A stretch of 6,306 bases of DNA from a bacterium (lineage in GTDB: Bacteria > Thermosulfidibacterota > Thermosulfidibacteria > Thermosulfidibacterales > Thermosulfidibacteraceae). The stretch lies in NCBI GenBank assembly GCA_027022065.1, contig JALVZS010000210.1, positions 1 through 6,306 on the forward strand, read 5' to 3'. Under the pieces are notes generated by a model. The model did not search any database. It was not told the DNA's origin and saw only the letters and a program-made list of their open reading frames with translations. A program made the translations under genes and the position numbers. Below, piece after piece: positions 1 to 6,279 of the stretch (positions are counted from its first letter, which is position 1; each line of letters begins with the position of its first letter).

Positions 1-205
1 CGCAGGAGGACCAGAAAGTATGCATTTTTCAGGACAGATGGTCTGTGCAAAAGACGGCGCATGCTTCAATGAGGAGAGAAGGCTCTTTGGATCCGCCATA
101 ACCCTGATGGAAGGAATTAAGTGGGCTGCTGAAGTCACAGAGACAAATCCAGAGGATTTGTTGCAAAATAATTTTAAGCTATATAAATTTTATAAAAACT
201 GCTAA
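1..205 (+). CDS. NagA-like amidohydrolase, C-terminal end only (partial)
   Basis: The reading frame is open from base 2, so the gene begins before the window; the Met codon at base 20 is probably internal. About 67 C-terminal residues are visible. The stretch FSGQMVCAKDGACFNEE followed by RLFGSAITLMEG matches in order the end of N-acetylglucosamine-6-phosphate deacetylase (E. coli NagA: F-G, then G-C, an E, then L-GS--T--EG). That enzyme removes the acetyl group from GlcNAc-6-phosphate in the cytoplasm during amino-sugar and cell-wall recycling. The metal-binding residues lie outside the window, so activity cannot be judged. It ends only about 38 residues after the GSAIT motif, where NagA normally has about 75, so the last strands of the beta-sandwich appear to be missing, and the final codons are AT-rich. 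It is probably co-transcribed with the HD-GYP gene 11 bases downstream. Another amidohydrolase subfamily is possible. Confidence 0.5.
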   Translation, partial: AGGPESMHFSGQMVCAKDGACFNEERRLFGSAITLMEGIKWAAEVTETNPEDLLQNNFKLYKFYKNC

Positions 206-216
206 AGGATATTACC

Positions 217-1179
217 ATGGACACCACCCTTGAAGAAAAGAAGATAGAGTTGGAATCCCTCATACCCGTTCCCGGAGAAATGCTCAAGACTTTAAACATT
301 GAAGATATCAGTATCTTTCTCATACACAGGAGCAAACCAGTTCTCTACAAAAAGGCAGGAACCCCAGTATCCGAAAAGCTTTTGGAAGAGATAGACCACA
401 ACAGGGTATTTTATATACAGCGCTCAGACAGCACAAAGCTTATAAACCAAGTAGAGGAACACTTCAGAAAGCTTCTTAAAAAGCCCCCCTCAGTAGAAAA
501 CCTAACAGACATGTTCTCCCAAGTGGGTAAGATGGTGGACTTTCTACTTAAGATGCCCAACAAGGAGAATCTGAATGCTGCTGTAAACTTTTCCAAGCAG
601 CTTTCTAACTACATAGAGGAAAATCCAAAGGCCGCATACCTCATGGGGTTTATCCTGCAAAAGGACTTCACCACAGCCCTTCACGTGTCCAATGTGAGTG
701 CCCTGGTCTCTGGCTTTGCCTATCATCTGGGTATGAGGGGAGAAGAGCTAAACCACATAACATCCGCAGCCCTTCTGCACGACATAGGAAAAAGCAGGGT
801 GCCAGACAGCATACTGAAGAAGCCGGGGAAGCTCACAAAGGAAGAGTTTGAGATCATAAAGAAGCACACCATTTGGGGAGCCAGGATACTTGAGGAAAAC
901 GGCCTTGCAAAATACTCAAAGGCAGCCCTCTATCACCACGAAAACTCCGATGGCTCAGGGTATCCAAGGGGGCTTCCAGATATAAAGATACCAGAAGACG
1001 CAAAGATAATAAAGGTTTGCGACGTTTATGAAGCACTAACGGGTATAAGACCCTACAGAAACTCCGTGGATCCCTTCCCCGCCTTAACCATAATGCAGGA
1101 AGAGTTTGTAAACGTGGGCAAGATGAACAAGGAACTATACAGGAAGTTTGTAAACTACCTATACAAAAACAGAACCTAA
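217..1179 (+). CDS. HD-GYP domain cyclic-di-GMP phosphodiesterase
   Basis: This 320-residue cytoplasmic protein has no membrane segment. Residues about 1-130 form a variable N-terminal domain; the part with FLIHRSKPVLYKKAG and then VFYIQRSD resembles the sensory N-termini of some other HD-GYP proteins. Residues about 145-320 are a complete HD-GYP domain, which hydrolyses cyclic-di-GMP to pGpG or GMP. All expected metal ligands are present: His156 (HVSNV), His188-Asp189 (LLHDIGK), His217 (KKHT), His240-His241 (HHE) and Asp269 (VCDVYEAL), together with the signature DGSGYPRGL (GYP at 248-250) and the Arg/Tyr-containing TGIRPYR. It is therefore predicted to be active. The start at 217 is supported by AAGGA at 205-209, 7 bases upstream and overlapping the stop of the NagA-like gene. 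There is no attached GGDEF or receiver domain, so the input signal is unknown. Its stop overlaps tail to tail with the opposite-strand gene. Confidence 0.93.
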   Translation: MDTTLEEKKIELESLIPVPGEMLKTLNIEDISIFLIHRSKPVLYKKAGTPVSEKLLEEIDHNRVFYIQRSDSTKLINQVEEHFRKLLKKPPSVENLTDMFSQVGKMVDFLLKMPNKENLNAAVNFSKQLSNYIEENPKAAYLMGFILQKDFTTALHVSNVSALVSGFAYHLGMRGEELNHITSAALLHDIGKSRVPDSILKKPGKLTKEEFEIIKKHTIWGARILEENGLAKYSKAALYHHENSDGSGYPRGLPDIKIPEDAKIIKVCDVYEALTGIRPYRNSVDPFPALTIMQEEFVNVGKMNKELYRKFVNYLYKNRT

Positions 1180-1961
1180 ATTAGAGCCTCCGATACTATC
1201 TTCAAGCCAGCATTGGTAACCTTTAAAACTAGAACCCTTAATCCATCCACCCTTTTTATGTTGCTTCTGTAGGTGTTTCTGAAGAATATTGCATATAAAT
1301 CGCTTTCCGGCACCTTCACCAGCACAGGGTTGTCCACCACCACATCAACATACTTGGCTATACCGTCTTCTGCCCTTCTATAGGATAGCCACTTTTCCCT
1401 GTTGCCCTGAGGGCTTTTAAAGTCATCAGCGTATAAAGAGGCGTAGGCCTCAAAATCCTTCTTTATGTTTATCCAGGCCTTCTGCCATCTATAGACAAAA
1501 TCCAAGGCGGAAACAGGATAAAGGGTTTTTTCCGGTTTCGGCGCCACCACCAGCAGCTCGCACCCTAATCGTAGGTAAAGCTCTTTGATGTCTCCAGTAT
1601 TATAAACGCACATAAACCTCCATCCCTTTGTCCTGTGGCAGGCCACATCCTCTATCCCATACCTCTTCACCCTGTACCACACCCTCCTTTGAAGCCTTCG
1701 GTTAACCACCTTTCTTCCATCTCTCACTATGAGAACCTTTTTGCTTTTGGTAAAAACTATGTATGCGTACCTGTTAGGCGTTATAAGGTAGGGAAAAGGA
1801 GACTCCGCCTGTTTAATGGATAAAGAGGAGGTTTTGTTTTGAGTTCCCTCTTTTGTACTTAACACCTTGAAAGGGCGCTTCCTGCCGGAAGTAAAAAACA
1901 AGACAAATAAAAAAAGAAGAGCAACAGCGCCTATGCCAATTAAGAGTCGCCTATCCTTCAT
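1176..1961 (-). CDS. Membrane-anchored Cds6 (NTF2-like) domain protein with possible YkuD remnant
   Basis: The protein has 261 residues. Residues about 6-24 (LLIGIGAVALLFLFVLFF) form one hydrophobic helix flanked by KDRR and GRKR, so the protein is probably a single-pass anchor with the bulk outside the cytoplasmic membrane. Residues about 152-258 match the Cds6 C-terminal domain, an NTF2-like fold often attached to L,D-transpeptidases: the pattern W-KAW, then DFEAYASLYADDF, then REKWLSYRRAE, and late FFRNTYRSN and GLKIVSEA. The middle part (about 64-140) begins like a YkuD domain (YAYIVFTKSKKVLIVRDGRK) and ends like one (CVYNTGDIKELY), but it is much too short and lacks the SHGC motif. No enzymatic activity is predicted from this. 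It starts 3 bases after the iclR stop with no clear ribosome binding site, so translation is probably coupled to iclR. A cell-envelope role is inferred from the domain family only. Confidence 0.75.
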   Translation of the reverse strand: MKDRRLLIGIGAVALLFLFVLFFTSGRKRPFKVLSTKEGTQNKTSSLSIKQAESPFPYLITPNRYAYIVFTKSKKVLIVRDGRKVVNRRLQRRVWYRVKRYGIEDVACHRTKGWRFMCVYNTGDIKELYLRLGCELLVVAPKPEKTLYPVSALDFVYRWQKAWINIKKDFEAYASLYADDFKSPQGNREKWLSYRRAEDGIAKYVDVVVDNPVLVKVPESDLYAIFFRNTYRSNIKRVDGLRVLVLKVTNAGLKIVSEALI

Positions 1962-1964
1962 ACA

Positions 1965-2741
1965 TCAGACAACATAGCCCAGGTGCTTTGAAATCTCAAG
2001 AGCCGCTTCCTTCACAGCCTCTATCATCTCTCCCATTCTATCCTCGGTCATCCTGAAGGAGGGAGCCGATATGGAAAGACCCGCCACCACATACTTGGTA
2101 TAGTCTCTTATGGGAGCAGCCACACACTTAACATCCTCCTGGAACTCCTCATTGTCAACAGCGTACCCTTTCTCAGCAACTTCTTTTAGGTGCTCCATAA
2201 GCTCATTAACATCGGTTATGGTGTTGGGGGTGTACTGCTTTAACTTTTTGTCCTTAAACAGCTCCTCCAGCTCATCGGGTGGAAGAAATGCAAGCTGCGC
2301 CTTGCCAATAGCCGTGGCATAAGCCGGTATCTGCACCCCCACACGGGAAACAACCCTTATGGTGTGGGTGGTCTCCACATTGTCAATGTAGATAGAGTAA
2401 ATATTCCTCAAAACCCCAAGATACACCGTCTCATTGAACCTATCCCTCAGCTTCTCCATAACGGGGCGGGCATGCTTTATAAGCCCCATCTGGTACTTGA
2501 AGATAAGACCCAGCTCAAAGATCTTGGGTCCTAGCCTGTAGCCTTCTGTTTTGGGATTCTGTTCTATATATCCCCTAAATTCCAGCGTTGCCAGAATTCT
2601 AAAAACATTGTTTTTGTGAAGCCCCATGCGTTGAGAAAGCTCAGTGACGCCCATCTCTTCCTTATCTGTATAGCAACTCAAAAGAAGCAAAGCGTGATCC
2701 ACCGCCTTAACAAGAGGAAGCTCCTTCTTGTATCCCCTCAT
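1965..2741 (-). CDS. IclR-family transcriptional regulator
   Basis: At 258 residues this is the usual length for the family. Residues about 11-72 are the N-terminal winged helix-turn-helix: VDHALLLLSCY, then GVTELSQRMGLHKNNVFRIL (recognition helix around 42-50), then LEFRGYIEQ and the wing ending in GYRLG. Residues about 85-255 are the IclR effector-binding domain, with RVGVQIPAYATAIGKA, a KGYAVDNEEF segment and VKCVAAPI followed by VVAGLSISAP. Family members bind small metabolites and repress or activate catabolic or stress genes. Nothing in the window identifies the ligand. The start is well supported by GGAGGTG seven bases upstream. It is separated from tatD by 42 bases containing a candidate promoter, so it may be transcribed independently. 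The gene 3 bases downstream (Cds6-like) is the most obvious co-regulated partner. Autoregulation is possible but not shown by any visible operator. Confidence 0.93.
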   Translation of the reverse strand: MRGYKKELPLVKAVDHALLLLSCYTDKEEMGVTELSQRMGLHKNNVFRILATLEFRGYIEQNPKTEGYRLGPKIFELGLIFKYQMGLIKHARPVMEKLRDRFNETVYLGVLRNIYSIYIDNVETTHTIRVVSRVGVQIPAYATAIGKAQLAFLPPDELEELFKDKKLKQYTPNTITDVNELMEHLKEVAEKGYAVDNEEFQEDVKCVAAPIRDYTKYVVAGLSISAPSFRMTEDRMGEMIEAVKEAALEISKHLGYVV

Positions 2742-2748
2742 GGATTCC

Positions 2749-2755
2749 CACCTCC
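2749..2755 (-). promoter_or_regulatory. Ribosome binding site of the iclR-family gene
   Basis: On the minus strand the sequence reads GGAGGTG, close to a full anti-16S match, ending 7 bases before the ATG at 2741-2739. This fixes the start of the IclR-family gene. It also shows that the gene is initiated independently rather than by overlap with tatD, unlike the upstream genes of the operon. Confidence 0.8.
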
Positions 2756-2768
2756 ATTTTATAGAGGC

Positions 2769-2797
2769 AGATTAAAACAAGGTTTACCGATTGTCAA
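2769..2797 (-). promoter_or_regulatory. Candidate sigma-70-type promoter for the iclR-family gene
   Basis: On the minus strand a perfect -35 hexamer TTGACA (2797-2792) lies inside the last codons of tatD. It is followed by either TAATCT (2774-2769, 17-base spacing, weak hexamer) or TTTAAT (2776-2771, five of six matches, 15-base spacing). A transcript would start a little downstream, around 2763-2760, leaving a short leader with the GGAGGTG site. The position directly before the only non-overlapping junction of the minus-strand cluster supports it. The call rests on consensus matching alone, and the -10 element is ambiguous. Confidence 0.35.
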
Positions 2798-3557
2798 GGG
2801 CAAAGAGGCTTTTAGAGTTTTCAAACACCAAGTTAAAAAGCTCCTCCGTTGATATTCCCCTAACTCCAGCTATAACAGACGCCGTATACCTTACATACAC
2901 GGGTTCATTGCGTTTTCCCCTGAGGGGCATAGGTGTGAGAAAGGGAGCATCCGTTTCAACCAGAAGCCTATCTTCAGGCACCCACTTAGCCACATCCCTT
3001 AAGTGCTGGTTTTTGGAGTATGTGGTGTGTCCTGCAAAGGAGATATAGCAGCCCATATCCAAATAATCTTTGGCATCGCTTAAATCTCCAGAGAAGCAGT
3101 GTATTACCACGCCTCTCAAGCTTGAAGAGTATCGTCTAAGCACACTTTTGGTATCGGGATGGGCATCTCTGGTGTGTATCACAACGGGAAGATTAAGCCT
3201 AACTGCAAGCTCAAGCTGGGCCTCAAAGGCTTCAAACTGAGCTTCTTTTGGGGAAAAGTTTCTGTAAAAGTCCAGCCCTATCTCCCCTATGGCCACAACC
3301 TTTTCGCTTTTTGCAAGCTCCTCCAAGCGTTTCAACGCCTCATCGCTAAAGTCCTTTGCATCGTGAGGATGAACCCCGCAGGTGGCATATATGAAGGGAA
3401 ATCTTTCAGCCAGGGAAACTGCCCTTTCACTGTCCTCCACACTGATACCAACAGTTAAAATAAAGGGAGAGCCCTCCTCCTCTATGCGGGAAATCACCTC
3501 ACCTCTGTCCTTGTCGTAGTAGTCCATGTGCAGGTGGCAGTGGGTATCAACTATCAT
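2784..3557 (-). CDS. tatD: TatD-family metal-dependent deoxyribonuclease
   Basis: The protein has 257 residues, a standard TatD length, and is a TIM-barrel amidohydrolase-fold nuclease. It is thought to act in the cytoplasm as a 3'-5' exonuclease on DNA during repair or DNA turnover. All landmark residues are present: His6 and His8 in DTHCHLH, the GVHPH motif (61-65), Glu92 in GEIGLDFYR, His128 in VVIHTRDA, His153 in IHCFSG and Asp203 in ETDAPFL, followed by PLRGKRNEP (211-219). Despite the name, the family has no role in Tat protein export. Its ATG overlaps the metG stop by four bases (ATGA), and GGAGG sits four bases upstream inside metG, so it is translated as part of the metG operon. The same metG-tatD pairing is found in Bacillus and many other bacteria. 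It looks intact and is expected to be active. Confidence 0.96.
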   Translation of the reverse strand: MIVDTHCHLHMDYYDKDRGEVISRIEEEGSPFILTVGISVEDSERAVSLAERFPFIYATCGVHPHDAKDFSDEALKRLEELAKSEKVVAIGEIGLDFYRNFSPKEAQFEAFEAQLELAVRLNLPVVIHTRDAHPDTKSVLRRYSSSLRGVVIHCFSGDLSDAKDYLDMGCYISFAGHTTYSKNQHLRDVAKWVPEDRLLVETDAPFLTPMPLRGKRNEPVYVRYTASVIAGVRGISTEELFNLVFENSKSLFALDNR

Positions 3558-5443
3558 CTCACCTCCGCTCCAACAGGGGTATCCTCTGGAAACTCGGGCA
3601 GATATAGCTTATCCCCCTTTGAAGCGGCAAGGATCATACCCTGAGACTCTATGCCTCTCAGCTTCTTAGGCTTAAGGTTTGAAAGATAAAGCACCTTTTT
3701 ACCCACAAGCTCCCCAGGACTGTAGTGGGCGCCAACGCCTGCAACCACCGTGCGAACGCCACTTCCCGTATCAAGCACAAGCTTCACAAGTTTATCGGTT
3801 TTGGGCACCTTTTCCGCCTCAAGCACCTTGGCAACAATAATCTTCACCTTAGCAAAGTCCTCTATGCCTATCTCCTGGGCCATCTCCTCCCCCTCCTTTA
3901 TCTCCTGCTCTACCCTTCTGGCTATCTCCTCTTCGTCCAGTTTGGGGAACAGAGGCCTACCCTTCTTCACCTTACCGCCGACAGGTATCCTGCCCCACTC
4001 CAAATCCTCAGGCTTAGGCTCGGAAGGGCACCCCAGTTGCTCAAGCATCTCGGCCATCTTAACGGGCATAAAGGGATATAGAACCACTGCAACAAGCCTT
4101 AGGGTCTCAAGCAAATTGTAAAGCACATTGGAAAGTTCCTCTTTCCTCCCTTCTTTAGACAGCTTCCACGGAGCGGAAACATCTATATATCTATTGGCAG
4201 CCCTGATTACCTCCCAAACGGCCTCCAACGCCCTGTTGAAGGCCTGAACATCCATAAACCTGTCCACCTCTTCAAGCATCTTCAAGGAAAGCTCCTCAAG
4301 CTGCCTGTCCCTGTCCTTAGTAGGCTCAGGAATCACCCCATCCAAGTACTTTATGGTCATGGTAAGCACCCTATAAAGCAGATTACCCAGATCGTTGGCC
4401 AGATCCCCGTTTATGCGGTGGGCCAAGGCCTTGTGGGAAAAGTCTCCGTCAAGCCCAAAGGGAACCTCCCTCAAGAGGAAGTACCTCACCGCATCTGCCC
4501 CATAGGCATCTATGAGCCTGTTAGGTTCAACAACGTTTCGTAAGGATTTGGACATCTTCCTTCCCTCAACGGTCCACCAGCCATGGGCGAACACCCTTTT
4601 AGGCGGCTCAAAGCCCGCCGCCATAAGAAAAGCAGGCCAGTAAACGGCGTGGAACCTCAAAATGTCTTTCCCTATGATGTGGAGATCCGCAGGCCAGTAC
4701 TTCTTAAACTTCTCGTTGTCTGTTCCGTATCCCACTCCAGATATGTAGTTGAACAGGGCATCAAACCACACATAGATCACATGCTCCTTGTCAAAAGGAA
4801 CGGGAATCCCCCACCTAAAGGTCGTTCTTGAGATAGATATGTCCTCAAGCCCCATTTTAACGAAGGACTTAATTTCATTCATACGGGACTCCGGAAAGAC
4901 AAAGTCGGGATGCTCATCGTAAAACTTCAACAGCTTGTCCTGATAAGCGGAGAGCCTGAAGAAGTAGCTCTTCTCCTTAACCCTCTCTACGGGTCTTCCA
5001 CAGTCGGGACAGTACTTCTCCTCCACAAGCTGGCTCTTGGACCAAAAAGACTCACAAGGGGTGCAGTACCAGCCTTCATACTCGCCGAGATATATATCTC
5101 CTTTATCGTAAAGCCTCTGGAAGATCTCCTGAACCACCCTTTCGTGGTAGTCATCTGTGGTTCTTATAAAGTGACTGTAGCTTATGTTTAGCCTCTCCCA
5201 TAGGCGTTTGAAGTTCACAACAACGCTATCTGCAAGCTCCTTGGGACTCATCCCCTTGGCCCTTGCACTTTTCTCTATCTTCTGCCCGTGCTCATCTGTC
5301 CCAGTAAGAAAGAAAACATCATAGCCCTTAAGCCTCTTGTACCTTGCAATCACATCGGCGGCTATGGTGGTGTATGCGTGTCCCAGATGGGGCACATCAT
5401 TAACGTAGTATATGGGCGTGGTCACATAGAACTTCTTCATCAT
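3554..5443 (-). CDS. metG: Methionyl-tRNA synthetase with fused C-terminal tRNA-binding domain
   Basis: This enzyme joins methionine to tRNA(Met) using ATP, an essential cytoplasmic step. Class I Rossmann signatures are present: HLGH (19-22, the HIGH motif) and KMSKS (296-300). The connective insertion carries one zinc knuckle, with Cys127/Cys130 and Cys145/Cys148. VWFDALFNYISG (225-236) and the IIGKDILRFHAVYWPA region (256-271) belong to the catalytic core. Residues about 340-500 are the helical anticodon-binding domain, and a charged linker with EEEIARRVEQEIKEGEE (504-520) leads to an OB-fold tRNA-binding domain of the Trbp111/EMAP type (about 527-629, with SNLKPKKLRGIESQGMILAA). The length of 629 matches the single-chain dimeric type. 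There are two adjacent Met codons: the first overlaps the ricT stop (ATGA), while the second, at 5440, has better spacing from AAGGAGG. The true product may be 628 residues. Confidence 0.98.
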   Translation of the reverse strand: MMKKFYVTTPIYYVNDVPHLGHAYTTIAADVIARYKRLKGYDVFFLTGTDEHGQKIEKSARAKGMSPKELADSVVVNFKRLWERLNISYSHFIRTTDDYHERVVQEIFQRLYDKGDIYLGEYEGWYCTPCESFWSKSQLVEEKYCPDCGRPVERVKEKSYFFRLSAYQDKLLKFYDEHPDFVFPESRMNEIKSFVKMGLEDISISRTTFRWGIPVPFDKEHVIYVWFDALFNYISGVGYGTDNEKFKKYWPADLHIIGKDILRFHAVYWPAFLMAAGFEPPKRVFAHGWWTVEGRKMSKSLRNVVEPNRLIDAYGADAVRYFLLREVPFGLDGDFSHKALAHRINGDLANDLGNLLYRVLTMTIKYLDGVIPEPTKDRDRQLEELSLKMLEEVDRFMDVQAFNRALEAVWEVIRAANRYIDVSAPWKLSKEGRKEELSNVLYNLLETLRLVAVVLYPFMPVKMAEMLEQLGCPSEPKPEDLEWGRIPVGGKVKKGRPLFPKLDEEEIARRVEQEIKEGEEMAQEIGIEDFAKVKIIVAKVLEAEKVPKTDKLVKLVLDTGSGVRTVVAGVGAHYSPGELVGKKVLYLSNLKPKKLRGIESQGMILAASKGDKLYLPEFPEDTPVGAEVR

Positions 5444-6279
5444 TTGCCCTCCTTAGAAGAAATCACCTCTTCCAGAGGCACCGTCATCTGCCCCTTTCCT
5501 TCCCCCAGCGAAATGATGATCTTGCGGTTTATAATGTCAGCGCTAACCACCTCTCCCTCAACGCCCGCTATAGTTTTTACCTTCTCACCCACTTTAGGAA
5601 ACTCCTTTGCAAGCTCTTGGTATATAGGATACTCGTAGGATAAACAACACATGAGCCTCCCGCAAAGGCCAGAAATTTTGGAGGGATTAAGCATAAGATA
5701 CTGCTCCTTGGCCATCTTAACGGAAACCGAGTGGAATCTATTGAGGAACTGCCTGCAGCAGGTAACAAGCCCACAGGGACCTATCCCCCCTATCATCTTG
5801 GCCTCATCCCTTATCCCTATCTGCCTCATCTCAATGCGGGTTCTGTATTTTCTCGCAAGGTCCCTGACAAGCGCTCTAAAGTCTACCCTCCTGTCGGATG
5901 TGAAGAAGAACATTATGCGGCGCCTGTCTAAAGAGGCCTTAACCTTTATAAGCTTCATGGGAAGCTCTCTCACCTCTATCCTGTGCCTGCAGAAATGAAA
6001 TGCCTCCTCCTCCAGCGGAAGGTTCCTCTCGTGCTTTTTCCAGTCATCTTCTGTAGCAAGCCTCAAAACGGGAGTAAGATCCTCCATGGTCATATCAAGC
6101 TCCTCAAGCATAACCACCTCAGGCCCTTTCACTACACGCCCCAGAAGCTCCCCCACAAGATCCTCCACCACTACATAGTCACCAACCGAAAGCTCCAAAC
6201 TCCCAACGGCATAAGGCTTTATGGGAAACGCATCATCGGTCTTAACCCAAACCACCTCAACTTCCCCTTCTCTTCTCAT
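5440..6279 (-). CDS. ricT: RicT / YaaT (PSP1 domain) family protein
   Basis: The protein has 279 residues, close to the 275 of B. subtilis YaaT (RicT). In Bacillus, RicT works with RicA and RicF as an iron-sulfur complex that helps RNase Y process mRNAs, affecting biofilm formation, competence and sporulation; elsewhere its role is less clear. The N-terminal part (about 1-50) is a beta-rich PSP1-type region. The core carries the family hallmarks IGGIGPCGLVTCCRQFL (163-179), VSVKMAKEQYLMLNPSKISG (185-204) and GLCGRLMCCLSYE (204-216). Cysteines at 97, 169, 174, 175, 206, 211 and 212 match the cluster-ligand pattern. A C-terminal segment, VGEKVKTIAGVEGEVV (230-245), resembles a small KOW-like beta strand pair. 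Its ATG overlaps the upstream stop by four bases (6276-6279), with GAGGG four bases before it. The frame is also open to the window edge, but the overlap makes this start the best choice. Confidence 0.93.
   Translation of the reverse strand: MRREGEVEVVWVKTDDAFPIKPYAVGSLELSVGDYVVVEDLVGELLGRVVKGPEVVMLEELDMTMEDLTPVLRLATEDDWKKHERNLPLEEEAFHFCRHRIEVRELPMKLIKVKASLDRRRIMFFFTSDRRVDFRALVRDLARKYRTRIEMRQIGIRDEAKMIGGIGPCGLVTCCRQFLNRFHSVSVKMAKEQYLMLNPSKISGLCGRLMCCLSYEYPIYQELAKEFPKVGEKVKTIAGVEGEVVSADIINRKIIISLGEGKGQMTVPLEEVISSKEGK
5448..5454 (-). promoter_or_regulatory. Ribosome binding site deciding the metG start
   Basis: On the minus strand AAGGAGG lies inside the last codons of ricT. It is 4 bases from the first ATG (5443-5441) and 7 bases from the second ATG (5440-5438). 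The usual 5-9 base spacing favours the second ATG, giving a protein that begins MKKFYVTTP as in many relatives, although either start keeps the gene coupled to ricT. Confidence 0.7.

Follow-up and report, generated by a model that had tools for sequence, protein, structure and literature searches.

A predicted membrane-anchored Csd6-type NTF2 protein with an orphan middle module encoded next to iclR

The Cds6_C domain (the name 'Cds6' is presumably a misspelling of Csd6, the Helicobacter pylori cell-shape protein) is accompanied by a YkuD domain in most of its occurrences across genomes. It is also found with SPOR, AMIN, or AAA ATPase domains or with a transmembrane helix alone, and since it occurs with SPOR, AMIN, or only a helix, an enzyme-less Cds6_C protein is unexceptional. 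The window analyzed here, a stretch of 6,306 nucleotides, encodes a Cds6_C protein in which the region before this domain is short. An initial annotation proposed that this region is a decayed YkuD domain that keeps a YkuD-like beginning and ending, or, failing that, a new fold sharing just the ends with YkuD. Here, the question of what stands before the Cds6_C domain was addressed, and the protein was divided into the following features.

1176..1961, minus strand: whole coding sequence, 261 amino acids (aa) plus stop, with its ATG 3 bases past the iclR stop
1890..1949, minus strand: N-terminal transmembrane helix predicted from the sequence, residues about 5-24, with basic residues on both flanks
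1788..1889, minus strand: linker, residues 25-58, rich in Ser, Thr, and Lys and without predicted structure
1521..1787, minus strand: orphan module, residues 59-147, probably beta-rich, without significant similarity to YkuD, SPOR, or HR domains
1188..1505, minus strand: Cds6_C (Csd6-type NTF2-like) domain, residues 153-258, assigned by Pfam, with pocket residues W163, Y173, Y177, F181, R195, R242, and E258

The open reading frame is real. Its codon usage resembles that of the neighboring genes across nearly all 261 aa, and stops abound in the other frames. Thus, translation does extend through the central part of the protein, and a frameshift or double-frameshift origin of the reading frame is ruled out. 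Upstream on the same strand lie ricT, metG, tatD, and iclR, in this order, and iclR and the Cds6_C gene, with the same strand and a spacing of 3 bases, likely form one operon. The order ricT-metG-tatD-iclR was also found in L054, and metG-tatD-iclR in L053, which are the two closest named relatives. In both, iclR is followed by a convergent pdxA-like gene instead of the Cds6_C gene. The contig is thus a member of their lineage, and the Cds6_C gene is an addition at that place.

The lineage-conserved ricT-metG-tatD-iclR run (window 1965-6279, minus strand; also L054) holds an IclR-type regulator amid housekeeping genes. At the other end of the window, a C-terminal fragment resembling the N-acetylglucosamine-6-phosphate deacetylase NagA (1-205, plus strand; TIGR00221, E 5.6e-6) is followed by a gene for an HD-domain protein (217-1179).

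A search by DNA pattern found no close relatives in the genome contig and viral contig collections searched. Within the phylum, no orthologue was found, the match at E 0.155 in G001 falling inside a miaA-like gene, and NCBIfam and PHROGs profiles gave no credible match for the 261-aa protein. The protein is most plausibly lineage-specific, and its middle module an orphan.

The C-terminal half, which had been annotated as an intact Cds6/NTF2-like domain, was confirmed as such. Pfam Cds6_C (PF24125) matched residues 153-258 with an E value of 4.3e-11 and 43.5 bits, above the curated cut-off of 27, and the match covered profile positions 3-110 of 111; the NTF2 part of the family HMM gave a 69-bit match to the protein. 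NTF2 domains can have other roles. Among solved structures, the closest in sequence is 7O21, that of Bd1075 of Bdellovibrio, in which the same domain is responsible for targeting the enzyme to a single face of the cell (PMC8938487). In Campylobacter Pgp2, the pocket of the NTF2 domain binds peptidoglycan; cell shape depends on Y233, F242, K257, K307, and E324, and peptidoglycan pull-down on K307 (PMC8038945). In our alignment, Pgp2 W225, Y233, Y237, F242, and E324 are identical here (W163, Y173, Y177, F181, and E258, respectively), and K257 and K307 are replaced by arginine (R195 and R242). At the position of R242, all 57 other aligned sequences with a letter there have lysine, so peptidoglycan binding may differ in this protein. 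The position of Pgp2 Tyr301, which is tyrosine in most sequences, is lysine here. Judged by the alignment, most of the peptidoglycan pocket appears to be retained, the two Lys-to-Arg changes aside, and we infer that the NTF2 domain binds peptidoglycan.

The predicted membrane anchor at the other end of the protein held up, as the hydrophobic N-terminal helix appears both in the sequence and in the AlphaFold model built without relatives (helix 3-24, whose first two blocks have pLDDT 76-89). With its basic flanks, the segment of residues about 5-24 looks like an N-in anchor, a topology predicted from sequence features.

When residues 59-147, between linker and NTF2 domain, were searched alone, Pfam gave no match at E values up to 10. 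For the segment among 391 genomes around G018, the best E value was 0.003, and the strongest matches lay in stop-containing frames and were taken as chance. Comparison of the segment with YkuD, SPOR, and HR alignments by hhalign gave probabilities of about 0.1-0.2 percent. Without relatives, AlphaFold reached a pLDDT of 41.7 for the whole chain and 42.2 for residues 59-150, and in these low-confidence models the secondary structure was mixed for the whole chain versus all-beta for residues 59-150 alone. A Foldseek search with the pLDDT 42 model gave a best E value of 1.2, with no YkuD among the 50 matches listed.

If the module were a decayed YkuD domain, a YkuD-Cds6 enzyme would have lost about 55 core residues together with the catalytic motif, leaving a pseudoenzyme in which the first hairpin and the final strand-helix-strand survive. 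The order and position fit, as the module lies directly before the Csd6-type domain, where YkuD sits in most relatives, and BLAST alignments with some Aquificota-type proteins extend back to residue 85 (L133 and L145) or 115 (L134, L141, L152, and L154). The AlphaFold strands at 66-89, 105-111, and 115-121 are compatible with YkuD at low confidence. Several letters noted in the initial annotation are as claimed, namely Cys118, His109, RFMC (115-118), and ACHRT (107-111), and the central span is indeed short, with 30 residues at 88-117 versus about 80 or more in real YkuD-Cds6 relatives, where the distance from TPEG to Cys alone is 61-72 residues. The proposed YkuD-like beginning, VFTKSKKVLIVRDGRKVVN, is present, but at 69-87 instead of 66-86. 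The catalytic HG and (S/T)xGC motifs are absent, with ACHRT and RFMC in their stead. The only GC in the protein (133-134) precedes Glu, versus Val or Ile in the YkuD family; Cys118 and W159 are 41 residues apart, whereas the measured relatives have 43 or more; and the BLAST alignments disagree on register, the catalytic Cys lying opposite Trp114 rather than Cys118 in the one with L133. The PF03734 (YkuD) profile gave no match at E values up to 10 with either the whole chain or the segment, and none in this genome (88% complete) or in 8 others of the phylum, in a search confined to this family.

For a quantitative test, an HMM was built from 42 YkuD-Cds6 proteins, and the real segment was compared with shuffled segments placed before the unchanged NTF2 domain. 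With residues 55-147, the score was 71.0 bits versus 70.4 ± 1.0 bits for the shuffles, a gain of 0.6 bit that 86 of 500 shuffles equaled. With subfamily HMMs, 369, 987, and 1376 of 3000 shuffles were as good as the real segment, and the sum of pairwise BLAST scores was ordinary (41/300). The YkuD profile picked up a weak signal of 1.0 bit in the segment alone, a score that 73 of 2369 scored shuffles equaled (p about 0.02-0.03). In contrast, two proteins with truly decayed YkuD domains (L043 and L051) gained 19 to 22 bits, and six held-out YkuD proteins still gained 45 to 96 bits after their core had been cut out; in either case, none of 500 shuffles did as well, although these controls are less diverged than a fully eroded YkuD could be. 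When held-out YkuD proteins were cut to the start plus the part from GC to the end, about 15-55 bits were still gained (0/500). Because the controls were detected by the same HMM test, the test has the power to see a decayed YkuD. Across the profile and pairwise tests, p varied by test between about 0.02 and 0.5, and the claim that both ends of the region are YkuD-like beyond chance was not confirmed. A decayed YkuD is thus doubtful and without measurable support here, though a form eroded beyond recognition is possible, and the fallback, taken as a different domain that has just the ends in common with YkuD, is the better reading.

Other known envelope domains were weighed in the same way. 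The module could be an HR-type domain, as in GspB, GspC, and PilP of secretion and pilus machineries, the NTF2 domain then serving as the wall anchor. GspB and GspC have a TM-linker-HR architecture. The home-made HR profile scored best among the three profiles tried (4.8 bits; 12 of 2309 scored shuffles as good, a p value that requires correction for the three profiles), and a GspA-like AAA ATPase with C-terminal Cds6_C exists in the same phylum (L028). However, the match spans 13 residues in a register that differs from the one proposed by eye, the reversed segment still gave 3.3 bits, and the T2SSB and T2SSC models (GspB, PF16537; GspC, PF11356) had no match in this genome, which makes an HR domain quite unlikely. 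A SPOR-like domain binding denuded glycan strands, for which we see a very low probability, would have precedents, as SPOR-Cds6_C fusions are known (L045, SPOR E 1.2e-17; the L046/L161 gene was the best SPOR match in the search), and the whole-chain single-sequence model runs strand-helix-strand-strand-helix-strand over 76-139. The model of the segment alone has strands only, Pfam SPOR (PF05036) had no match, and the home-made SPOR profile gave 4.2 bits, which 64 of 2690 scored shuffles equaled, on a best segment that is essentially WYRV.

Several other Cds6_C architectures came to light. Within the phylum, the domain occurs in just one other genome, where L028 (G003:C170) is a GspA-like AAA ATPase that ends in Cds6_C after a long Lys/Pro-rich linker. 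L043 and L051 (G366) are NHL beta-propeller proteins in which a decayed YkuD (residues about 355-495 of 612) precedes the C-terminal Cds6_C; the TPEG, HG, and GC motifs are lost, and the YkuD-Cds6 HMM still places them 19-22 bits above shuffles. They are a clearer case of a YkuD pseudoenzyme than the window gene. In L007 (G061), L030/L052 (G335), L005 (G014), and L036 (G255), YkuD is joined by apparently two Cds6_C-like NTF2 domains, in tandem or separated by a linker.

Taken together, we favor, with a probability of roughly 60%, a single-pass inner-membrane, non-catalytic peptidoglycan-binding tether or adapter with a periplasmic C-terminal Csd6-type NTF2 domain. The N-terminal helix would anchor the protein in the inner membrane with the remainder facing the periplasm, the NTF2 pocket would hold it against the cell wall via peptidoglycan, and whatever the module at 59-147 contacts may thereby also be kept at the cell wall. 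The protein would act as a tether or adapter rather than as an L,D-carboxypeptidase or transpeptidase. More tentatively, residues 59-147 might form a small, beta-rich envelope module of a new kind, or a non-catalytic scaffold eroded from YkuD, working with the Csd6-type NTF2 domain in a lineage in which no PF03734 enzyme was found. Together with several relatives, this gene presents the Csd6-type NTF2 domain as an envelope module of general use, untied from YkuD enzymes and combined with SPOR, AMIN, ATPase, or orphan partners. If the domain binds peptidoglycan alone here, this protein could allow its targeting role to be examined with no enzyme attached.

The characterized proteins Csd6 of H. 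pylori (4XZZ), Pgp2 of C. jejuni (6XJ6), and Bd1075 of Bdellovibrio (7O21) are L,D-carboxypeptidases that end in an NTF2 domain. The present protein shares with them the C-terminal NTF2-like domain, most pocket residues, and a probable periplasmic location. Unlike them, it has no recognizable YkuD domain and no TPEG, HG, or SHGC motif; in their place, it carries a membrane helix and a short orphan module. The best NTF2 matches were the Aquificota-type YkuD-Cds6 proteins (L133, L134, L029, and others), at about 25-30% identity; these carry an intact YkuD of about 130-150 residues, whereas about 90 unrelated-looking residues are found here. The middle module has no detectable match to the SPOR domains of L045 and L046 or to the AMIN domain of L041. 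In general architecture, the protein is comparable to these enzyme-less, envelope-type Cds6_C proteins (SPOR-NTF2 in L045 and L046, AMIN-NTF2 in L041) and to L044, in which a transmembrane helix and a linker likewise precede the NTF2 domain.
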